Assembly (NCBI GenBank): GCA_913055905.1 | Contig: CAJXLB010000001.1 | Span: 124,001 to 188,000, forward strand | Source of the DNA: an uncultured Winogradskyella sp. | Lineage (GTDB): Bacteria; Bacteroidota; Bacteroidia; Flavobacteriales; Flavobacteriaceae | Direction: 5' to 3' | Length of the DNA: 64,000 nucleotides | In this document: piece by piece, positions 7,421 through 20,630 of the stretch | Numbering within the stretch: the stretch's first letter is position 1 | Layout: every line of letters begins with the position of its first letter | Translations under genes and position numbers: made by a program | The notes under the pieces: model-generated | Seen by the model: only the letters and a program-made list of their open reading frames with translations | Told to the model about the DNA's origin: nothing | Databases searched by the model: none

Positions 7421-8761
7421 TTAGTAAATCTGCCCTTTCAACTTTTGATGCAGCATCAAAGCATTAGAATCCGATAACGACGCCACAAAGCGGCAGACGC
7501 TCAATAAATTATCGTATAACGACTCTTGGCCTAAATGAAATGAAGATGGCAATAATTGGATTAGCAGCTTGTCATAATGTGATAAGCTATTGTTAAAGCA
7601 GTTATAAGCTACAGTGCCATAACGCTCAAGTAAATGATTTAAAATTTCATAACCTGAAATTTCTTTTTGCACCACCTCTTGAGAGTTATATACGTTCTTT
7701 ATACTCAATGTTATGATATCCTGGATTTGCGCCTTGTATTTGGAGGCGTCTAGAAGTGCGGTGTCAAAGGTGCCATTGAGTATAGCATCCTCATTGGCCA
7801 TAAAAATTTCGGCAGCTTCGTCTATTAAAGTACCTATGGCAAGAGCTCTAAGGTAGCTTATACGATCTTGTTTAGATGTAAGCGCATTATAATTCTTGGT
7901 CTGGATACGATCTCTTACCAAGTTGATTAAATATTCCAAAGCGTAATCTTCTTCGATAAGGCCCAAATTAATACCATCCTCAAAATCTATTATAGTGTAA
8001 CAGATATCATCAGCCGCCTCAACCAAAAAAGCCAAAGGATGCCTATGAAAACGAAGGTCTTCTGCACTGCGTTTTGGCAAACCAAGTTCCTGGGCGATGT
8101 CTACAAACATGGACTTTTCGGATTGAAAAAACCCATACTTTTTATCGGCGATATGCGTACTTGGTTTTTTAGGAAGGGATTCCTTCGGGTATTTCATAAA
8201 AGCCCCTAAGGTGGCATAGCTCAATCGAAGTCCGCCCGAACGGCCTTCTCTACTTTGCGCCAAGATATGAAACCCATTGGCATTACCTTCAAAATCACAT
8301 AAGTCTTGGTATTGCTTATCCGTTAATACTTCGGAATAACGGCTTCCTGGTCCGTTTTTAAAGAACGACCCTATAGCCTTTTCCCCAGAATGACCAAAGG
8401 GAGGGTTTCCTATATCGTGCGCTAAAGCTGCGGCTGCCACAATAGCTCCAAAATCGTTTAAAGTATAGCCATGAATTTCTGCGAGATGTGGATGCTTTTC
8501 TAAAAGTCGTTGCCCTACCTTTCTTCCTAAAGAACGTCCTACGACGCTGACCTCTAGGCTATGCGTAAGCCTGGTATGAACAAAATCTGTTTTTGATAAA
8601 GGAATGACTTGGGTTTTATCCTGTAAACTTCTAAACTCCGCACTAAAAATTATACGGTCATAATCCACCTCAAAGCCCAAACGGGTTTCGTCCTGCTCTT
8701 TTCTTAAGCGCTTAAAATTATCGCCATATCGTTTAAGTGAAAGTAATTGCTCCCAATTCAT
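7421..8761 (-). CDS. dgt: deoxyguanosinetriphosphate triphosphohydrolase-like HD protein
   Basis: About 446 residues from the ATG at 8761 (MNWEQLLSLKRYGDNFKR). An in-frame ATG eight codons upstream at 8785 is possible, but the extra residues MRLGKIDG look unconserved. HD-domain metal ligands are visible: TRLTHSLEVSVVGRSLG (H), AALAHDIGNPPFGHSGE (HD) and the later VEAADDICYTIIDFEDG (D). The family hydrolyses dNTPs to deoxynucleosides and triphosphate and controls dNTP pools, which suits a chromosome region also carrying nrdAB and a dCMP deaminase. Confidence 0.9.
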   Translation of the reverse strand: MNWEQLLSLKRYGDNFKRLRKEQDETRLGFEVDYDRIIFSAEFRSLQDKTQVIPLSKTDFVHTRLTHSLEVSVVGRSLGRKVGQRLLEKHPHLAEIHGYTLNDFGAIVAAAALAHDIGNPPFGHSGEKAIGSFFKNGPGSRYSEVLTDKQYQDLCDFEGNANGFHILAQSREGRSGGLRLSYATLGAFMKYPKESLPKKPSTHIADKKYGFFQSEKSMFVDIAQELGLPKRSAEDLRFHRHPLAFLVEAADDICYTIIDFEDGINLGLIEEDYALEYLINLVRDRIQTKNYNALTSKQDRISYLRALAIGTLIDEAAEIFMANEDAILNGTFDTALLDASKYKAQIQDIITLSIKNVYNSQEVVQKEISGYEILNHLLERYGTVAYNCFNNSLSHYDKLLIQLLPSSFHLGQESLYDNLLSVCRFVASLSDSNALMLHQKLKGQIY

Positions 8762-8879: not shown

Positions 8880-8968
8880 GTAACACTTAGATAACACCCG
8901 GCTAACTTTTTAATTACAAATGTTTAATTTTTGTTTAACCTGTTTGCCTCCTAATCGCAGTTTCTTTG
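8880..8968 (+). promoter_or_regulatory. phased 11-bp PhoB/PhoP-like box array and promoter of the TonB receptor
   Basis: Units GTAACA, ATAACA, CTAACT, ATTACA, TTAATT and TTAACC begin at 8880, 8891, 8902, 8913, 8924 and 8935, exactly 11 bp apart. Five of six keep the AC dinucleotide in phase. A -7-like element TTTCTTTG lies at 8961-8968, just before the ATG at 8992. The spacing matches the known E. coli Pho box (11-bp units) and the B. subtilis PhoP site (TTAACA-like hexamers with about 5-bp spacers). Assignment to a flavobacterial PhoB is inference. Confidence 0.6.
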
Positions 8969-8991
8969 CATCATTAAATATAATTGATTTT

Positions 8992-11844
8992 ATGAGAAAT
9001 ATTTTAGCCTGGGTTTTGGTAATAACGGCTCTGTATGGAGGAGCGCAAAACACGGGTTCTATTGCTGGAAAACTGACAGACAAAGACTTTAATAATGAGC
9101 CTTTGCCTTTCGCCAACATTGTCATTAAAGGTACTTCTAAAGGGACAACTTCTAATGAAGAAGGACTTTACTTAATTGATAATGTAGAGCCTGGGACTTA
9201 CACTGTGGTCTTCAGTTTTGTTGGATATGAAACACAAGAAATTGAAGCGACTGTAGAAGCAGGTAAAGTTACTACTATTAATGTTCCTATGGGAGCCAGT
9301 GCTGCAGCACTCGATGAAATTGTAATTACAACAGAACTGCGCAAAGAAAGTGAAGTGGCTTTGCTTTTAGCTCAAAAAAATGCTGTTGAGATTAAGGAAA
9401 GTATCGGTGCGGAACAATTAACTAGATTGGGTGTCTCAGACGCTTCTGCCGCCACCACTAAAATTTCTGGAGTTTCTAAATCCGACGGTGCAGGTCAAAT
9501 TTATGTTCGTGGTCTAGGCGACAGGTATTTGACTACTACTCTTAACGGTCTTCCTATACCTTCAGATAATATTGACAAAAAGAACATTGATTTGGAATTA
9601 TTTCCAACTCGATTTATTCAAAACGTATCTATTAGCAAGACGTTCTCACCAAAAAATTCGGCAGATCAAGCATCTGGTAATATTGATATTTCGTCAAAAC
9701 AAATCACTTCTCGAAAAGACTTCGGAATTGGTATGAGCGGAGGACTTAATACAAATGCTAATGATGTTTACGACGATTTTAAAGTTACGGCCGTAAATGA
9801 CAATTTAAATTTAGGCATATTTTCTAGGCCTTATCAAAATGATAATCTTAGGGATGCCTTATTAGGTCAGACCTGGAACACAGGAACAGAATCCATGCCA
9901 TTGGACTATTCATTTGGTTTCAATGCTGGTGGCTTCATCGATGAAGACGGTAAATTAAGAATGTTTGTTGCTGGAGGACAATCTGTAAGTCATGAATATC
10001 GCGAAGGATTGTTCAGGGAATATGACGTTGGACAACGAAATGACTCCATTCCAGATGGCGACAACAGGTTCTGGAGACGAGAGGTTAATACCTCTGGAAT
10101 GTTTGGAGCTGAATACCGTATCAATTCCAAAAATAAACTTAGCCTAAATACCTTCGCTATTAATAAAGTTTTTGAAGAAACCTATGAAGCAGGTCGTGAA
10201 GGTGGTGCAATTATTTTTGAAGAGTTAACACCGGAGGAAGCAGGTAATCAGTTTGTGAGAGACCAGAACCTTAGAAATACTTTTCTATTGGTATCTCAGC
10301 TTTTAGGTACGCATGACATAAGCGACAATAATACGTTAGAATGGGGTGTGAGCTACAATAGATTGGCAGCTGACGAACCTAATCGTATTCGTAACGAAAT
10401 CAATATCATGAACGAGAATACGAATTTAGGTATTCCAGATGGCCAATTACAATTGGGTAATACTGGTGGATTTCAGCAAAGAAAACAATCGCAAGAGATC
10501 TTGGACAATGAATTCAACGGTAGGATTATGGACGCTATTTCACTAAAGCGTAACGAAGATGGCGATGATATCTATAAGGTAAGTTTTGGTGGAGATGCAA
10601 GAAATAAAGAAAGAGACTTTAGGTCTGACTTTATTGGATTTGATGAGAATTCTGGCGGTACTTTAAACCCAGCCTCAATAGACAACCTAACAGAAGTCTT
10701 TACGCAACAAAACATTGACAACGGCAACATAGTACTATTGCAACAACCTTCTGATTTTTATACTGGAACTTTATTGTCCTACGGCGGTTTTGTTGACTTT
10801 GTTGGAGTTTTCGGGAATTTGACCGCAGAAGTTGGTTTGAGATATCAAAACGACAATATCGATGTTGAGTACGACGTTAATAACGCTCCTGGTGGACGAG
10901 TTGGCGATATCAGTAAAGCTTATGAAAGGTTTTATCCTATGGTCAACTTTAAGTATGCTTTTGATGACAGGATGGCTTTGAGACTTTCTAGTAGTCTGAG
11001 CCAAACCTTACCAGAGTTCAAAGAAATTGCTCCTTTTGAATATGTAGATCCTCTTGGACAGATTACAAGCGGTAACCGTTTTATAGAAGCTTCAAGAAAC
11101 TTCAATATAGACCTTAAGTTTGAATTTTTCCCTTCAGGAGATGAGTTGTTATCCCTTACTACCTACTATAAGAATATCCAAGATCCAATTAACCAAAGTT
11201 TACGACTTGGAGGTGAAGGCATCTTTTCTTACTTCAATACCAGTAATAACGCAGAAGTCTTTGGTATAGAATTGGAAGGCCGAATGTATCTTATTCCAAA
11301 AGTTGAGAATAGAGTAAACCTGAGATTATCCGGAAACGTCTCTTATATAGACCATAAACAAGATTTAAGATCTGATGGTTTAGGCGTTAACGGACAGGAA
11401 CGTTCGTTTCAATATAGAGGTATAGATGAAATAGGCCTAGAAGGTGCCTCCGATTGGACCACTAATGTGGCGCTGACTTTAAATTCAGGTCAAAAAAACC
11501 CGCTCGAATTTACAGTAGCAGCCAATTATGCTTCAGACCGTATTTTCGCCATTGGTGCTCCACGAAGTCAACGTATACTGCCTGATGGATCTTTTGAAGG
11601 CGATGTCTTCTTTAATGGTGAAATTATAGAGCAAGGGGTGGTCGTACTAGATTTCATTTTCAGAAAGGATATTAGTGAAAATCTAAGTATTGGCGTAACC
11701 GCTAAAAATATATTAAATCCAGTTATTGAAAGATATCAATTGGTGTCTGATGATCCAGGAGGATCAACTGCGACAAGAAGAGAAAATGTATTAACATACA
11801 ATAGAGGTATTGATGGTCAATTAAGCCTCAACTATAAATTCTAA
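8992..11844 (+). CDS. TonB-dependent outer-membrane receptor (proposed phosphate-regulated)
   Basis: About 950 residues from the ATG at 8992 (MRNILAWVLVITALYGGAQ), which gives a clean signal peptide. The longer frame from 8920 would start inside the regulatory repeats. After the signal peptide come a carboxypeptidase-regulatory-like beta-sandwich (about 25-110; FVGYETQEIEA), a plug domain (about 120-250; GVSKSDGAGQIYVRGLGDRYLTTTLNGLP) and a 22-strand-type barrel ending in LSLNYKF with the usual aromatic C-terminus. It imports an unknown large substrate across the outer membrane using TonB energy. The next gene follows after 30 bp and encodes a surface-type lipoprotein, a receptor/lipoprotein pair reminiscent of SusCD but without a SusD fold. 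The upstream 11-bp repeats suggest a phosphorus-containing substrate. Confidence 0.9.
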   Translation: MRNILAWVLVITALYGGAQNTGSIAGKLTDKDFNNEPLPFANIVIKGTSKGTTSNEEGLYLIDNVEPGTYTVVFSFVGYETQEIEATVEAGKVTTINVPMGASAAALDEIVITTELRKESEVALLLAQKNAVEIKESIGAEQLTRLGVSDASAATTKISGVSKSDGAGQIYVRGLGDRYLTTTLNGLPIPSDNIDKKNIDLELFPTRFIQNVSISKTFSPKNSADQASGNIDISSKQITSRKDFGIGMSGGLNTNANDVYDDFKVTAVNDNLNLGIFSRPYQNDNLRDALLGQTWNTGTESMPLDYSFGFNAGGFIDEDGKLRMFVAGGQSVSHEYREGLFREYDVGQRNDSIPDGDNRFWRREVNTSGMFGAEYRINSKNKLSLNTFAINKVFEETYEAGREGGAIIFEELTPEEAGNQFVRDQNLRNTFLLVSQLLGTHDISDNNTLEWGVSYNRLAADEPNRIRNEINIMNENTNLGIPDGQLQLGNTGGFQQRKQSQEILDNEFNGRIMDAISLKRNEDGDDIYKVSFGGDARNKERDFRSDFIGFDENSGGTLNPASIDNLTEVFTQQNIDNGNIVLLQQPSDFYTGTLLSYGGFVDFVGVFGNLTAEVGLRYQNDNIDVEYDVNNAPGGRVGDISKAYERFYPMVNFKYAFDDRMALRLSSSLSQTLPEFKEIAPFEYVDPLGQITSGNRFIEASRNFNIDLKFEFFPSGDELLSLTTYYKNIQDPINQSLRLGGEGIFSYFNTSNNAEVFGIELEGRMYLIPKVENRVNLRLSGNVSYIDHKQDLRSDGLGVNGQERSFQYRGIDEIGLEGASDWTTNVALTLNSGQKNPLEFTVAANYASDRIFAIGAPRSQRILPDGSFEGDVFFNGEIIEQGVVVLDFIFRKDISENLSIGVTAKNILNPVIERYQLVSDDPGGSTATRRENVLTYNRGIDGQLSLNYKF

Positions 11845-11874
11845 AACACACAAAAACAAAAATTAAATTTTAAA

Positions 11875-14694
11875 ATGATGAAAACGTTAAGCAAACTATT
11901 AAGCCTCGCAATTATTGCAGGATTATTAATGATGTCATGTAATGATGACGATGATAATGGAGGAGGTCAAGGCCCAGGTTCTGAGGCTAACCTCAATGGT
12001 ACCATTACCTCAGACAGAACATTAGACCCAAATGTACAATATACCATATCTGGTAGTGTATTGGTAGCCGATGGTGTTACTCTTACTATCCCTGCTGGAA
12101 CTGAAATTGTATCGCAACAAGGCACTGATAAGTATATCGCTGTTCTTAAAGGTGGGTCAATTGATATCCAAGGAACTGCTGGAAGCCCAGTAGTTATGCG
12201 CTCTAATGGTGTAGCTGGTTCTTGGGGTGGACTAGTAATCTGTGGTGATGCCACAACCACTGAGGGCGCCAATGCTACAGCGGAAGTTGGTGGTCTTGTT
12301 TACGGTGGTGACAACGACAGTGACGACTCAGGAGATATTGAATACTTAATTATTAGAGACGCTGGTGCACAAATCAACGCTGATTCCCAGTTTAACGGTT
12401 TATCTTTATATGCTGTAGGTTCTGGCACAAACATTAATAACGTAGCTATAATCAATGGTACAGATGATGGTATTGAATTCTTTGGTGGAACTGTTTCTGT
12501 AAGTAACATCTATCTTGAAAACAATGAAGATGATTCTATAGACTGGACTGAAGGATGGAGTGGATCTATTAACACGGCTTATGTAACTCAAACCATTGAT
12601 AACTTCTCTACAGTTATCGAATCTGATGGTGTAAATAACAACCCAACTATCAATAACCTTACAGCCATTTCTTCTACAGGAGGTTTGGCCATTCAAGTTA
12701 AAAATGCTTCAGGAGGAACCATCAACGGTTTTACTGCTACAGGTTATGACGATTTATTTGATTTCCCTGGTACATCAGGTCCTGGTGATTTCATAATTGA
12801 TGGTGCTGGATCTAATGTAGCTGATGACGCTGTTTACGCCTCTTCACAAACCAATGCAAGTCAGTTTTCTTGGGCTACTACTACAGACATTACCGATAAC
12901 GTATTACCGTCAAACATTGTAACAGATACCCAATTAGACCCTTCTATCCAGTATAGAATTGTTGGCCCTGTTTTAGTAAACAGCAATGCAACCTTAACGA
13001 TTCCAGCAGGAACAGAAATAGTCTCAAATTCTGGTACGGCAAATTACCTTGCTGTTCTTCAGGGTGGTGATATTAATATTCAAGGATCACCTGGTAACCC
13101 AGTAGTAATGCGTTCTGATGACGGACTTCCTTGGGGTGGCTTATTATTGTGTGGTAATGCAACAACCACTGAAGGTGTAAACGCTACTGCAGAAGTTGGT
13201 GGTTTAGTGTATGGAGGTACTAATGATAATGATTCTTCAGGTAGTATTGAGTACCTAATTTTAAGAAACACAGGAGCGCAAATCAATGCTGACTCCCAGT
13301 TTAATGGATTATCGCTTTACGCTGTAGGTGATGGCACATCTATTGACAATGTGGCTGTAATCTCTGGTGCTGATGATGGTATTGAGTTCTTCGGTGGTAC
13401 CGTTAACGTAACTAACTTCTATGCAGAGAACATTGAAGACGATGCCATAGATTGGACTGAAGGATGGAATGGAACGTTATCTACTGCATATGTGGTAAAT
13501 ACAATCCAAGATTTCTCAACAGCGATTGAAGCTGATGGCGTAAATGCTAACCCAACTATTGAAAATCTAACAGCTATTTCTTCTACTGGTGGTTTAGCTA
13601 TCCAAATGAAAAATGCTTCCGGTGCAACTATTAATGGTTTCACTGCGACTGGATTTACTGATTTATTTGATTTCCCAGGAACTTCTGGCCCTGCAGAATT
13701 ACAAATTGATGGTGCTGATGCCGATACAGCAGCTGATGCCGTTTATGCGTCTTCTCAGACCAATGCTAGTAACTTTGCTTGGGCTACAGATGGTATTGAC
13801 TCTGAAGTCCTACCAGCAAATATTACTTCTGACCTAACTCTAGACGCGTCTGTTGAATATATTATCAATGGCCCTGTTCTTGTAAACTCTGGTGCTACAT
13901 TAACTATCCCAGCAGGAACTACAATAGTTTCTAACTCTGGTACAGCAAACTACTTAGCGGTTCTACAAGGTGGTGCTATTGACATTCAAGGAGAGATGAG
14001 CAACCCAGTAGAAATGCGTTCTGCAGATGGCTTACCATGGGGAGGATTATTGCTATGTGGTAATGCCCCAACAACAGAAGGTGTAAACGCTACAGCTGAA
14101 GTTGGTGGACTAGTATATGGCGGCACAGATGAGAATGACTCATCAGGAAATATTGACTATTTAATATTAGTAGATACTGGTGCACAGATCAATGCTGACT
14201 CACAGTTTAACGGTTTATCTTTATATGCTGTTGGCGATGGTACTACTATTGACAATGTAGCCATAATCCGTGGTGCTGATGACGGAATCGAGTTCTTCGG
14301 TGGTACTGTAAACGTCACTGGATTCTATGCTGAAGATGTGGAAGATGATTCTGTTGATTGGACTGAAGGATGGAATGGTACCCTTACGGATACTTTTATA
14401 AAGCAAGGAAATGTAAACTTCTCAACTGCTGTAGAAGCTGATGGAGCTCCAGCAAACCCAACTCTTGTGAATTTTGCAGCTATCTCTACAGTTGGAGGTA
14501 CTGGAATCCAAATGAAAAATGCTTCTAACGCAACTATGATGATGGTAACCTTATCAGGTTTCGATGAGCAATTTGATTTCCCTGGAACTTCAGGACCAGC
14601 AGATTTACAAGTGAATGGTGCTAATGCCAATGAAGGTGCTACATATAATGCAGCAACAATCCAAGAATCTGATTTCGCTTGGATTAACAACTAA
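11875..14694 (+). CDS. lipoprotein with three ~300-residue beta-helix-like repeats
   Basis: A 939-residue protein. The signal peptide has a lipobox at LLMMSC (Cys about 22) followed by NDDDDNGGG, an acidic linker typical of surface-exported Bacteroidota lipoproteins. The rest is three tandem copies starting near residues 43, 347 and 649. Each begins T-I-T-S-D..LDP and contains LTIPAGTEI, GGLVYGG, GAQINADSQFNGLSLYAVG, DDGIEFFGGTV, DWTEGW, IQMKNAS and LFDFPGTSGP. Short repeating turns of this kind suggest a right-handed parallel beta-helix. Function is unknown. It is co-transcribed with the TonB receptor and is probably its substrate-binding partner. Copies are still close at DNA level, so the expansion is fairly recent or kept homogeneous by recombination. 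Confidence 0.85.
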   Translation: MMKTLSKLLSLAIIAGLLMMSCNDDDDNGGGQGPGSEANLNGTITSDRTLDPNVQYTISGSVLVADGVTLTIPAGTEIVSQQGTDKYIAVLKGGSIDIQGTAGSPVVMRSNGVAGSWGGLVICGDATTTEGANATAEVGGLVYGGDNDSDDSGDIEYLIIRDAGAQINADSQFNGLSLYAVGSGTNINNVAIINGTDDGIEFFGGTVSVSNIYLENNEDDSIDWTEGWSGSINTAYVTQTIDNFSTVIESDGVNNNPTINNLTAISSTGGLAIQVKNASGGTINGFTATGYDDLFDFPGTSGPGDFIIDGAGSNVADDAVYASSQTNASQFSWATTTDITDNVLPSNIVTDTQLDPSIQYRIVGPVLVNSNATLTIPAGTEIVSNSGTANYLAVLQGGDINIQGSPGNPVVMRSDDGLPWGGLLLCGNATTTEGVNATAEVGGLVYGGTNDNDSSGSIEYLILRNTGAQINADSQFNGLSLYAVGDGTSIDNVAVISGADDGIEFFGGTVNVTNFYAENIEDDAIDWTEGWNGTLSTAYVVNTIQDFSTAIEADGVNANPTIENLTAISSTGGLAIQMKNASGATINGFTATGFTDLFDFPGTSGPAELQIDGADADTAADAVYASSQTNASNFAWATDGIDSEVLPANITSDLTLDASVEYIINGPVLVNSGATLTIPAGTTIVSNSGTANYLAVLQGGAIDIQGEMSNPVEMRSADGLPWGGLLLCGNAPTTEGVNATAEVGGLVYGGTDENDSSGNIDYLILVDTGAQINADSQFNGLSLYAVGDGTTIDNVAIIRGADDGIEFFGGTVNVTGFYAEDVEDDSVDWTEGWNGTLTDTFIKQGNVNFSTAVEADGAPANPTLVNFAAISTVGGTGIQMKNASNATMMMVTLSGFDEQFDFPGTSGPADLQVNGANANEGATYNAATIQESDFAWINN

Positions 14695-14716
14695 TACTGA
14701 GCTTGTTCTCAAAAAG

Positions 14717-14748
14717 AAAGGCGTCATTTCAATGACGCCTTTTTTATT
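14717..14748 (+). terminator. rho-independent terminator after the repeat lipoprotein
   Basis: Stem AAAGGCGTCATT / AATGACGCCTTT with a tiny loop, followed by a T-rich run. The A run on the left means it can also serve the convergent gene from the other side. Confidence 0.9.
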
Positions 14749-14774: not shown

Positions 14775-15098
14775 CTATTGATAAATAGCAGTTATTTGGT
14801 TTTTAGTATAATCAACGACCTTCATTTTATCATCGATCCAATAAACCCAACGTCCAACTTTGTTGCCATTGTTATAGCTTGCAGCTACTAGTTTATTACC
14901 TTTCTTATCATAGCTATACCAATATCCATGGAGTTTACCTTCTTTCGTGTAATATCCCTTTTGACTTATCTCACCATTATCATGATAATATACAACTTCA
15001 ATTAAATCTTTCTCTTTGTTTAATTTTAGTGTTCTTTCCTTTTGAGCATATGTAATCCCTACACACAACATCACTATTAGTACTATTAACTTTTTCAT
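14775..15098 (-). CDS. secreted MORN-repeat-like protein (YwqK-type)
   Basis: 107 residues with a signal peptide (MKKLIVLIVMLCVGITYAQ). It has two to three MORN_2-type turns, seen as YYHDNGEISQKGYYTKEGKLHGYWYSYDKKGNK and NGNKVGRWVYW. Family members are often labelled YwqK antitoxin-like, but no toxin partner is visible here and the signal peptide argues for an envelope location. It is transcribed divergently from the first PiT gene, with the phased Pho-like repeats beginning 38 bp before its start, so shared regulation is possible. Function unknown. Confidence 0.75.
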   Translation of the reverse strand: MKKLIVLIVMLCVGITYAQKERTLKLNKEKDLIEVVYYHDNGEISQKGYYTKEGKLHGYWYSYDKKGNKLVAASYNNGNKVGRWVYWIDDKMKVVDYTKNQITAIYQ

Positions 15099-15135: not shown

Positions 15136-15204
15136 TTAACATTAATTTTACTTTTAAACAACTTTTACGTAACATTTAATTAACATTAGGCGTGTTATAC
15201 TTTG
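15136..15204 (+). promoter_or_regulatory. phased 11-bp PhoB/PhoP-like box array upstream of the first PiT gene
   Basis: Five consecutive 11-bp units start at 15136, 15147, 15158, 15169 and 15180 with hexamers TTAACA, TTTACT, ACAACT, GTAACA and TTAACA. AC is in phase in all five. A -7-like element ATACTTTG (15197-15204) follows, its TTTG 18 bp after the last AC, so the boxes occupy the place of a -33 element as in known PhoB-activated promoters. A weaker two-unit array (ATAACA, GTAACA at 15316 and 15327) with CAAATTTG at 15353-15360 may be a second promoter nearer the ATG. Confidence 0.65.
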
Positions 15205-15387
15205 TTTATCAGCTTTTTATGTATTTTATATCTATCCACCAATATTAATTTATAAGACATTGTTTACTTTTAGTGGTTATTGGCGTAAATTAGATTTATA
15301 AATACCTAAAAGAACATAACACTTAGGTAACATAACGATCAAATTAAAAGATCAAATTTGCAAACATAAATTTAGAATAGTCTCTGT

Positions 15388-17670: not shown

Positions 17671-17731
17671 TAACGGCTGTACTCCTGTTGTATTTATTGG
17701 CTTCTTCTTTGACTAATATTTTAATTATTAG

Positions 17732-17779
17732 GTAACACCAATTTTACATTGTATTCACAAAAGAGCGTAGAGTATTTTG
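17732..17779 (+). promoter_or_regulatory. phased 11-bp PhoB/PhoP-like boxes upstream of the second PiT gene
   Basis: Units GTAACA, TTTACA and TTCACA start at 17732, 17743 and 17754, exactly 11 bp apart. A -7-like GTATTTTG lies at 17772-17779, with TTTG 19 bp after the last AC. The first PiT gene has 18 bp, so the two promoters share one architecture. The gene starts at 17815. Confidence 0.6.
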
Positions 17780-17814: not shown

Positions 17815-20103
17815 ATGTCTGATTTTTATGTTTTTGTTGTTGGCCTGCTCTTTGTGCTAGCGATTTCAGATTTAATTGTAGGAGTGAGCAATGACGCCGT
17901 AAATTTCTTGAACTCTGCAATTGGCTCCAATGTAACATCGCGGCGAAATATAATGATAGTGGCCAGTCTTGGTATTTTGGTAGGCGCTACTTTTTCGAGT
18001 GGTATGATGGAAGTGGCACGAAAAGGAATTTTTAATCCCGACTATTTCTATTTTTCAGAAATCATGGTAGTGTTTATAGCTGTTATGATTACGGATATTA
18101 TTTTGCTCGATTTGTTCAACACATTCGGTATGCCAACCTCAACGACGGTATCGATAGTTTTTGAATTACTCGGTGCTGCTGTCGCGGTTTCTCTTTTAAA
18201 AATCGCATCTCAGGAAGAATCATTGGCTACTTTAGACAATTACATCAACTACTCAAGTGCCTTACTTATCATTTCTGGTATTTTTCTGTCTATTATAATT
18301 GCCTTTTCAATTGGAAGTGTTGTACAATATATCTCAAGACTCATTTTTACATTTAATGTTTCAAAAAATATGGCTTGGATAAATTATTTATGGTGCGGGC
18401 TGGCCTTGTCTTCACTAACTTATTTTTTATTCATAAAAGGGATATCTGGTGCTTCATTTATTTCGGAAGGACTTATAGCTAATGTTCAAAAAAATGCTCT
18501 AGTAACATTTGGGTTTGCCGTTGTAATTTGGACCTGTATTGTTGTTTTTTTACACAAAGCTTTTCAAATAAACATACTTAAAGTAGTTGTTTTATTCGGA
18601 ACATTTACATTAGCCATGTCATTTTCTGGCAATGACCTTGTTAATTTTATTGGCGTACCAATTGCAGGATATGAGTCTTATTTAGCTTGGAGTGCATCAG
18701 GAGTTCCGGCTGAAAGTTATGCCATGGGAATTTTACTAGAACCCATCCAATCAAAATCATATATGCTTTTATTAGCAGGTTTAATAATGACTGTTACTTT
18801 ATGGTTTTCAAAAAAAGCTAGGGCCGTAACGGAAACTGAAGTCAATCTTGGACGTCAAAGTGAGGGTGACGAACGCTTTAATCCTAACATTTTGTCTAAA
18901 CGCATCGTAAGATACTCCATTTTATTAGGCAAAAAGGTGAATGACGCCATTCCAGAGACTTGGCTGGAGAAGACTGAAAAGCGTTTTCAAACCTCACAAG
19001 AACTATACGACAACACAAAGGGTAAGCCACTACCAGCATTTGACTTGGTAAGAGCTTCTGTAAATTTGGCCGTAGCAAGTATTTTAATTGCCTATGCCAC
19101 CTCACTAAAGCTACCCCTTAGCACTACGTACGTTTCTTTTATGGTGGCAATGGGTACATCTCTCTCCGATAAAGCCTGGGGACGTAATAGTGCCGTATTT
19201 AGAATTGCAGGTGTTATAAACGTCATTGGCGGTTGGTTTGTTACAGCGATTTTAGCGTTTACTGCTTCTGCAGCGTTTGCGATATTTATTTATTTTTTTG
19301 ATATCAAAGCTATTGGCATCCTCATATTATTGGTTGTTTTTCTAATTAGCAGGACATTTCTTCTACACAAGAAAAAAGAGAAAGAAAAGAAAGCGAGAGA
19401 ACAATTTCAACGATCCCGTACATCTATCCTATTTGCAGACAGCATTAATCAAACCTCAGCAAAAGTTGCATCCTCATTATTGGTTGTGAGGGAAGCCTAT
19501 GAAAGTGCATTAAATGGTCTTTTGGATGAAGATCTAAATCTGCTCAAAACCTCCTTAAAGCGTGTAAACTCCATTAAGAAAGAACAAACCCAACTAAAAT
19601 ATCAACTTTTTGACTTAATAAAACGTCTAGACAACAAACCAACTCAATCTGGCCGACTGTATGTATTTGTCTATGACCTTGTCCAGGATATGGTACAATC
19701 CATATCGCTTATTTCTGAGACATGTTTAGAGCATGTATCCCGTAGTTTAACACCTGTCAATAATTATTACGGTACTGATATTTTAAAACTTAGAAATGAC
19801 ATAAATAACTATTTTGAAATTCTGGCTGAATTAATTAAAAACCAAAACTTTGCTAACCTAAACGAACTTATGACCCGTAAAAAAGAAATTTTAGAATCTA
19901 TAGAGCTTATACTTGCGGAACGCATAAATGACATAAGAAATAACGATTTGAATATGAGAAACAGTATGTTGCTTTTTACGATTCTATTAGAGAGTAAAGA
20001 CCTTGTGGCAATTTCTTCTAGATTTGCAAAATTATACAGTAGAATAAAGCCTTTGAGTCAAAGTAAAGGCAATTATTTTCTTTCTAAGAAAAATGACGGC
20101 TAG
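17815..20103 (+). CDS. PiT-family inorganic phosphate transporter with PhoU-like C-terminal domain (copy 2)
   Basis: 762 residues, a clear tandem paralogue of the preceding gene with the same architecture. It has GVSNDAVNFLNSAIGS, MPTSTTVSIVFELLG, SGNDLVNFIGVPIAGYES and LPLSTTYVSFMVAMGTSL in the membrane part, then a basic linker (KKKEKEKKAREQFQRS) and a PhoU-like helical tail from about residue 550. The tail and linker have diverged more than the membrane part, which suggests different affinity or regulation. It has its own upstream box array, so the pair may be transcribed separately. Confidence 0.92.
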   Translation: MSDFYVFVVGLLFVLAISDLIVGVSNDAVNFLNSAIGSNVTSRRNIMIVASLGILVGATFSSGMMEVARKGIFNPDYFYFSEIMVVFIAVMITDIILLDLFNTFGMPTSTTVSIVFELLGAAVAVSLLKIASQEESLATLDNYINYSSALLIISGIFLSIIIAFSIGSVVQYISRLIFTFNVSKNMAWINYLWCGLALSSLTYFLFIKGISGASFISEGLIANVQKNALVTFGFAVVIWTCIVVFLHKAFQINILKVVVLFGTFTLAMSFSGNDLVNFIGVPIAGYESYLAWSASGVPAESYAMGILLEPIQSKSYMLLLAGLIMTVTLWFSKKARAVTETEVNLGRQSEGDERFNPNILSKRIVRYSILLGKKVNDAIPETWLEKTEKRFQTSQELYDNTKGKPLPAFDLVRASVNLAVASILIAYATSLKLPLSTTYVSFMVAMGTSLSDKAWGRNSAVFRIAGVINVIGGWFVTAILAFTASAAFAIFIYFFDIKAIGILILLVVFLISRTFLLHKKKEKEKKAREQFQRSRTSILFADSINQTSAKVASSLLVVREAYESALNGLLDEDLNLLKTSLKRVNSIKKEQTQLKYQLFDLIKRLDNKPTQSGRLYVFVYDLVQDMVQSISLISETCLEHVSRSLTPVNNYYGTDILKLRNDINNYFEILAELIKNQNFANLNELMTRKKEILESIELILAERINDIRNNDLNMRNSMLLFTILLESKDLVAISSRFAKLYSRIKPLSQSKGNYFLSKKNDG

Positions 20104-20375
20104 AAACTACACCTTCCAGTCTAAAGAAAAACAAGCATCCCATAAAAATATTTTGAGTAAAAGTTTTTTATCTGGTTAAACTGTGAATTTTCACTTTCAC
20201 ACTGAATCTATGCAGGATATTGCTAATACCTCCTAGCTAAAACCGTATGCTAAGGGAATGAACAAAAATATTTATCTTCCTAAATCTCATTTATCCCTTA
20301 CAATTAAACTTAACATTACATTTAATTAACAATGAATTAATTTTATTAGTTTTCCAAAAAATTTTTGTCCAGACA

Positions 20376-20630
20376 ATGGCTTCTTATTTATTACCTGTTA
20401 ATGATCTTATTGAATCTATAGAGGATTTCAAAGATTTTGTATCATTAAAGCAATTCATTGATCAAAGTTCAAAGACTGTCAAATTATATAAATTAAGATA
20501 TTTAAACACTTCAGGAAAACTTGTGGTGATGCGAATAGAACTAAATTTAAAAAAGCATAAAATCTCTTACGGCTTATGGAAGGATAACGTCCTCCAAACC
20601 AAGAAGTTTTCTTCATCCATGGCAGATTAA
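20376..20630 (+). CDS. 84-residue protein of unknown function
   Basis: A small soluble ORF starting MASYLLPVNDLIESIEDFKD, with a basic amphipathic middle (LYKLRYLNTSGKLVVMRIELNLKKHKISYG). I recognise no domain. The 270 bp between the PiT gene and this ORF carry two TTAACA-like units 11 bp apart (ATTACA at 20315 and TTAACA at 20326) and an AT-rich stretch. AATTTTTG at 20360-20367 resembles a -7 box, but it is so close to the ATG that the transcript would be almost leaderless. Weak membership of the same regulon is possible. No clear terminator is seen. Confidence 0.55.
   Translation: MASYLLPVNDLIESIEDFKDFVSLKQFIDQSSKTVKLYKLRYLNTSGKLVVMRIELNLKKHKISYGLWKDNVLQTKKFSSSMAD

Follow-up and report, generated by a model that had tools for sequence, protein, structure and literature searches.

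Phased 11-bp repeats before a TonB receptor–lipoprotein operon of Winogradskyella: a probable phosphate-starvation promoter

The window considered here is a stretch of 64,000 nucleotides from an uncultured Winogradskyella sp. (contig CAJXLB010000001.1, positions 124,001 to 188,000, or G000:C1:124001-188000), part of a genome of 2.95 Mb in 13 contigs. Between dgt and PiT it carries the gene of a TonB-dependent receptor followed, 30 base pairs (bp) further on (11844/11875, as the first-pass annotation of this DNA had it), by that of a lipoprotein. The receptor gene is preceded by a phased array of 11-bp direct repeats, which have the look of a genuine switch for phosphate starvation, placed at a fixed distance from the receptor promoter. 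We think it probable that a PhoB-type activator site drives here a receptor–lipoprotein operon for the capture or uptake of a phosphorus-containing substrate under starvation. Dozens of related bacteria have both the switch and the gene pair, and from this we take it as probable that the pair is produced when phosphorus runs short. The elements at stake are the following:

8880..8945, plus strand: Pho-box-like array of six 11-bp units (units -7 to -2 of the relatives)
8946..8956, plus strand: decayed unit -1, GCCTCCTAATC; the relatives mostly have TTTACA here, and the same-genus locus L056 is likewise decayed
8961..8969, plus strand: candidate -7 box of the promoter, TTTCTTTGC, in phase with the 11-bp units of the array
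8992..11844, plus strand: TonB-dependent receptor, 950 amino acids, with CarboxypepD_reg, Plug and OMP_b-brl_3 domains (Pfam)
11875..14694, plus strand: lipoprotein with an SCNDDDD start and three repeats of about 302 amino acids, predicted to form acidic right-handed beta-helix modules

The six units start at 8880, 8891, 8902, 8913, 8924 and 8935 and read GTAAC, ATAAC, CTAAC, ATTAC, TTAAT and TTAAC, which bears out the earlier reading of six phases between 8880 and 8935, five of them retaining AC. As in L056, the array lies one unit further upstream than that of the other relatives. Scored over four units against dinucleotide shuffles, the receptor upstream reaches p=0.007, the corresponding values being 0.007 and 0.003 for the two phosphate transporter genes, PiT1 and PiT2. 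An ATG at 8920 was rejected as the receptor start, that codon sitting within the array; the signal peptide makes 8992 the most likely start. Sigma-A promoters of Flavobacterium psychrophilum are reported to carry TAnnTTTG at -7 (PMC9723704). The -7 box of the window retains TTTG and not TA, and this might be what an activator-dependent promoter would show. The minus strand has a further repeat resembling an array at 7596-7640; it was dropped, as it falls within the dgt coding sequence.

Lipoprotein relatives (E≤1e-10, paralogues counted) occur in 180 of 199 family genomes, and PhoB-like proteins (E≤1e-60) in 192. From the 179 genomes other than our own that have a lipoprotein match, 79 loci were taken (a first set of 39 and a held-out set of 40), namely the best-ranked down to G034, minus G161 and G082. 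Roughly 100 weaker matches stand outside this sample and may be paralogues, because the second copy of our own genome (L094) is without an adjacent receptor; L080, on a cut contig, likewise has no full one beside it. The model of the promoter was trained on 34 of 39 upstream regions, the window counted (L057, L059, L062, L064 and L087 being excluded). A third set, of 80 named loci with many congeners, partly overlaps both others and the training genera.

A four-unit 11-bp array is present at p≤0.05 (300 shuffles) in 34 of the 38 receptor upstreams with an adjacent pair, and period 11 alone stands out, with a mean best score of 20.6 versus 16.3-16.8 at periods 8, 9, 10, 12, 13 and 14. The in-register threshold was reached by 36 of 39 upstreams, the window counted, in which TAAC-like units repeat at 11-bp intervals, followed by TTCTTTGC at a constant position; this analysis is partly circular, because the score that chooses the register rewards TTAAC and TTTG, and the tests are the leave-one-out and held-out runs. 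With one locus left out at a time, the true site came first over both strands of its own locus in 34 cases of 34. Trained without the window and L056, the model gave the window site 33.4 bits and rank 1 among 127,820 positions, the runner-up being at -12.3. In the held-out genera the site came first within its locus in 37 of 40, and 35 of 40 passed p≤0.05 (200 shuffles). When the upstreams of the 228 open reading frames (ORFs) of at least 200 amino acids in these loci were scored, 37 rose above 10 bits; these are the receptors, an identification that rests on ORF length and on consistency with the scores of the single loci; next came chiefly porin, lipoprotein and PiT starts. In the named set, 66 of 75 scored upstreams ranked first and 58 scored above zero. 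Lipoprotein genes preceded by a long intergenic gap have arrays of their own at p≤0.05 in 5 of 13 cases. What is expected of a Pho regulon, upstream direct repeats that are phased and conserved beyond chance, is therefore present.

The whole genome was scanned with a covariance model built from sequence alone on 34 receptor promoters, 150 first-look candidates being scored per genome (out of 3032 in our own), with E-values that are rough. Among the 150 of our own genome, 24 matched at E≤10, the top five being the receptor (in the training set), a PlcP-like gene at C12:24533 (4.5e-8), gpmI (0.008), PiT1 (0.013) and PiT2 (0.015). The PlcP-like gene, which encodes a Metallophos_2 protein, is unlinked to the pair and lies on another contig. 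In the flavobacterium Dokdonia plcP is reported to be induced by phosphorus starvation (PMC4796936), and so is Fjoh_4577, the plcP of Flavobacterium johnsoniae, which shares PF12850 with our PlcP-like protein (PMC8115612). Four other genomes were scanned, two of which had contributed their promoter to the training and two of which had not; the receptor came first in each. PlcP-like genes, whose products are 84% and 74% identical to ours, were second in two of the four, the same two in which a porin gene upstream was among the matches, and in G014 and G118 the model found no PlcP-like gene. The same sites thus stand before other phosphate-starvation genes of our own genome, the name PlcP being given by Pfam and analogy and the gpmI site remaining unexplained. 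The latter (G000:C4:39686-39743, L103) lies 5′ of an apparent cofactor-independent phosphoglycerate mutase gene, by chance or through a true phosphate link.

Gene order points in the same direction. The receptor gene is directly 5′ of the lipoprotein gene in 38 of 39 loci of the first set, in all 40 held-out loci and in 75 of the 80 named ones (the five others are without an adjacent full receptor), and in 21 of the 38 no more than 50 bp separate the two genes. A PhoB-like gene, or PiT or a phosphate porin, lies beside the pair in 35/39, 32/40 and 60/80 loci of these partly overlapping sets, in tallies that did not extend to phosphatases or nucleases. In the first set 12 genera have a PhoB-like gene, 24 have PiT or porin (one has both) and four have neither, two of these being on cut contigs; L057, another locus counted as neither, has a PhoB-like gene about 14 kb away on the same contig. 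The held-out genera divide into six with a PhoB-like gene, 26 with PiT or porin and eight with neither. Seven of these eight have dgt, a gene belonging to the PiT slot; in the eighth (L206), which shows no array by the model, PstB, PhoU, receptor, lipoprotein, PhoB and PhoR form a cluster whose four phosphate proteins are above the NCBIfam cut-offs. The named loci comprise 37 with a PhoB-like gene, 24 with PiT or porin, one of them having both, and 20 with neither within the fetched stretch. On a receptor tree of 39 rows, made by a quick method from this gene only, the slot label (PhoB, 11 rows, versus PiT/porin/dgt) changes seven times, at least six of them on starred branches, the mean after shuffling being 9.6; it would seem, then, that the operon has changed place several times, going from one phosphate locus to the other. 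The first-pass annotation had held that homologous pairs tied to iron or glycans, without boxes, would speak against its proposal. Boxes in 34/38 and 35/40 loci and phosphate genes beside the pair in 35/39 and 32/40 are what we find, and the claim that the boxes are real and place the pair in the phosphate regulon is well supported by conservation, genome scan and linkage together.

Downstream of the pair, the window continues with these features:

14714..14745, plus strand: terminator-like hairpin and T run 3′ of the lipoprotein gene, 14 pairs
15136..15190, plus strand: five-unit array 5′ of PiT1, of which 15147-15190 resembles the oprP-distal array of relatives
15316..15365, plus strand: two-unit box and -7 box of PiT1, arranged as before the PiT genes of relatives, 31.1 bits
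15388..17670, plus strand: PiT1 phosphate transporter (PHO4)
17721..17759, plus strand: four-unit array 5′ of PiT2 (p=0.003 versus shuffles, genome-scan E 0.015)
17815..20103, plus strand: PiT2 phosphate transporter (PHO4)

The hairpin is the longest of eight in its region, where shuffles predict 7.0. Arrays precede the porin gene in 15 of 17 relatives. With matrices built from eye-selected upstreams (10 of 17 for porin, 8 of 23 for PiT), a porin-distal array of 47.8 bits and the PiT box of 31.1 bits are both found 5′ of PiT1, each the top match of the window. No PF07396 porin match (no oprP) was found in our own genome; this double upstream is likely a relic of porin loss, because the congener L056 has the porin. 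Between the lipoprotein and porin/PiT genes, here at 14775-15098 and in many relatives, stands a small-protein gene with a signal-peptide-like start and no Pfam match. A further 11-bp array occurs at 20304-20347, 3′ of PiT2 and some 30 bp 5′ of an 84-residue ORF (20376-20630).

As to the proteins themselves, the Plug and predicted beta-barrel domains make the first a TonB-dependent receptor. Its AlphaFold2 model (predicted local distance difference test, pLDDT, 83.3) has siderophore- and heme-type transporters as best Foldseek matches, a levan utilisome chain, presumably its SusC, coming at rank 35; the only PDB sequence match is 9gbc_A, over the first 269 residues. The pair had been called SusCD-like. 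This holds as a working analogy, since receptor plus lipoprotein is also the plan of SusCD/RagAB, and fails as a family assignment: with 56.4 bits the receptor is far below the 368.25-bit cut-off of SusC/RagA (TIGR04056), so that this membership was rejected. The lipoprotein, predicted to be a beta-helix, has no SusD match, in keeping with the earlier proposal of a partner without a SusD fold. Indeed no Pfam or NCBIfam family, SusD and the Pfam enzyme families included, matches it above cut-off, and no PDB sequence relative was found at E≤1. Its repeats are 72% (1-2), 71% (2-3) and 60% (1-3) identical. The AlphaFold2 model shows three modules rich in beta-strands (pLDDT 88.5), with a mutual arrangement that is uncertain because the predicted template modelling (TM) score is 0.52. 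In the Foldseek ranking PL6 alginate lyases head the list, and PL3 pectate lyases have a probability of 1.00; both are right-handed beta-helices, and the matches have an identity of about 10%, with TM-scores that are low for the query. The best PL6 matches span most of the model and tell of the kind of fold only, because their TM-scores are 0.11-0.19 with a root-mean-square deviation above 20; PL3 matches reach 0.52-0.60 by target length. The mature protein has an isoelectric point of 4.05 (117 D+E versus 14 K+R), and in an alignment of 36 sequences the acidic residues of the DDG, EDD-xxD and ExDG motifs vary little or not at all, a pattern suggestive of a metal ladder. Its SCNDDDD start is similar to the signal for surface export in flavobacteria.

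The candidate regulator is a PhoB-like protein (G000:C1:727283-727963) that matches a relative's PhoB-like protein at 83%. Its locus comprises genes for LuxE, an LTD protein of the type IX secretion system (T9SS), the PhoB-like protein, a PhoR-like kinase and a PF04101 glycosyltransferase; in the genome as a whole neither a PhoU (E≤0.001) nor a PstB above cut-off was found. From the boxes, their register and conservation, the gene linkage and the predicted folds, all of them shown by computation, we infer the following course of events. Under phosphate starvation the PhoB-like regulator would bind the head-to-tail TTAACA-like half-sites present every 11 bp and recruit RNA polymerase to the weak -7 box, TTTCTTTGC. 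One transcript would then be made for receptor and lipoprotein, and the latter, after export to the surface of the cell, would use its three acidic modules to hold a phosphorus substrate, probably polymeric or bridged by divalent metals, and pass it to the TonB receptor for uptake. The phosphate released would enter via PiT1 and PiT2, themselves under the same boxes. A phosphorus-containing polymer or metal-bridged phosphate is thus the favoured, and unproven, substrate.

Phosphate induction of such a pair is not new, because a pair of F. johnsoniae and ElpS of Caulobacter have been published, and it can no longer be said, as it had been at first, that no function is assigned to this lipoprotein family: F. 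johnsoniae FII and ElpS are both reported as low-phosphate-induced lipoproteins whose gene adjoins that of a TonB receptor, as in the window. The PUSIV pair of F. johnsoniae, Fjoh_0545 (a TonB-dependent transporter) and Fjoh_0546 (FII), is induced under phosphate depletion (ISME J 2020, PMC8115612). Judged by the published description, not by sequence, it resembles ours in its receptor (PF07715, PF13715, PF14905) and in the pectin-lyase-fold lipoprotein of the next locus tag; it belongs to a phoBR cluster that includes a PF04101 glycosyltransferase, as found next to our phoR-like gene, whereas the window pair lies between dgt and PiT and its lipoprotein has three modules. The main text of that article has 0 occurrences of ‘promoter’ or ‘pho box’, and its authors predict organic phosphorus for such clusters. 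Caulobacter ElpS (CC0170) is similarly described as a phosphate-starvation lipoprotein adjoining a TonB receptor, CC0171 (PMC2996285); the likeness is by description only, these proteins being proteobacterial and ElpS being released by type II secretion. As for the boxes, none of the papers listed in a search of the open-licence literature describes this array. The Pho boxes of PhoB/PhoP in other phyla have an 11-bp spacing. Like these, and like the TTTAACA motif found by DNA affinity purification sequencing for the PhoP regulator of Riemerella anatipestifer (PMC9603813), the array consists of direct repeats on a TTAACA-like half-site; it differs from them in comprising as many as six units, aligned in register to a -7 box of Bacteroidota type. 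Pho boxes have also been predicted in plcP clusters of marine heterotrophic bacteria, one flavobacterium included (PMC4796936), where plcP is, as here, a Pho-box gene; the relevant passages are silent on whether the flavobacterial cluster has a box, and on its sequence.

A number of observations weigh against a PhoB-driven operon for uptake of a phosphorus substrate. The model misses three of the 40 held-out loci (L206, the pst-phoU locus, L227 and L234), and it gives negative scores to 17 of the 75 named loci, including Aquimarina, Gillisia and Marinifilum; two Proteiniphilum loci (L196, L199) show four units by eye and score below zero. Just 4 of 19 PiT upstreams tested reach p≤0.05, many showing two units and a -7 box by eye, and the PiT matches of our own genome are modest (E 0.013 and 0.015) and outranked by gpmI. 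The name PlcP rests on Pfam and the F. johnsoniae analogy, because the best NCBIfam match of the protein is of LpxH type, below cut-off. The PhoB-like protein, whose best family is indeed PhoB (TIGR02154), scores 212 bits versus an NCBIfam equivalog cut-off of 296, and the PhoR-like kinase 234 versus 334. The CC0171 receptor of Caulobacter is reported to be constitutive, elpS not (PMC2996285). Finally, the acidity of the lipoprotein argues against direct binding of a polyanion.

Other explanations must be set beside that of a PhoB-driven uptake operon. Under the same regulation the pair might import inorganic phosphate or metal–phosphate complexes, with or instead of the phosphate porin and together with PiT. 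This is possible, if rather doubtful: the neighbours tallied are PiT, phosphate-selective porin and PhoB-like genes (from a search that left phosphatases and nucleases aside), the pair is kept here though the porin was not found, and so acidic a lipoprotein makes a metal bridge plausible, yet phosphate fits through porins, as is general knowledge, and the nearest PDB beta-helix folds act on polysaccharides. The prediction of organic phosphorus by the F. johnsoniae authors (PMC8115612) speaks against it too. It is unlikely that the lipoprotein is an ElpS-like accessory or a surface enzyme, for instance a lyase-like hydrolase, with the receptor separate in role; the fold matches to polysaccharide lyases would suit this, but the receptor lies directly upstream in 38/39 and 40/40 loci, within 50 bp in 21/38, and no Pfam enzyme family is above cut-off.

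The boxes might also bind another regulator of OmpR type, the phosphate link being a by-product of gene order. Further members of that family use direct repeats of 10-11 bp, and our PhoB-like protein is under the PhoB equivalog cut-offs; the R. anatipestifer PhoP motif was likened by its authors to that of Escherichia coli ArcA (PMC9603813). We hold this to be very improbable, the second-best genome match being the unlinked PlcP-like gene on another contig and PhoB-like genes adjoining the pair in 12/39 and 6/40 genera. There remain chance repeats in AT-rich intergenic DNA. The two-unit pattern TAACA-N6-TAACA occurs 22 times in the genome versus 11 for the reversed pattern, just twice the control; three of the 22 are in the window (8881, 15170 and 15317), and at least three two-unit matches are reached in 1 of 100 window shuffles. 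Taken alone this is weak evidence, and conservation among relatives is the stronger proof: with the true site first in 34/34 leave-one-out and 37/40 held-out loci, chance is contradicted and we reject it as scarcely conceivable.

In the sea and in soil, a major part in the recycling of organic matter falls to Flavobacteriaceae. The promoter code lets part of their phosphate regulons be read from sequence, and the receptor–lipoprotein operon, which 78 of the 79 loci sampled from relatives possess, is a prime candidate for work on the phosphorus compound that these bacteria bring across the outer membrane. A bolder and quite tentative extension would have a PhoB promoter code shared across Bacteroidota (five to six TTAACA half-sites, an 11-bp register and a TTTG -7 box), its best-conserved client being a dedicated apparatus of the outer membrane, whose acidic beta-helix lipoprotein would capture phosphate polymers bridged by metal and deliver them to a TonB receptor, with operon and promoter having moved repeatedly between phoBR and PiT loci.

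Some minor observations may be added. A weak array match (E 0.35; G000:C1:645983-646012, L108, L262) lies 5′ of another TonB receptor gene without a SusD-like gene directly after it. In the slot where other genera have the pair, a T9SS-sorted secreted LTD protein is encoded divergently from the phoB-like gene (L265:3642-6056); the two-unit match before this LTD gene is weak, with E 3.1 in our own genome and 0.03 in the congener. Loci of Aquimarina type (L057, L168-L171), which fit the array model poorly, carry a second receptor–lipoprotein pair in tandem.

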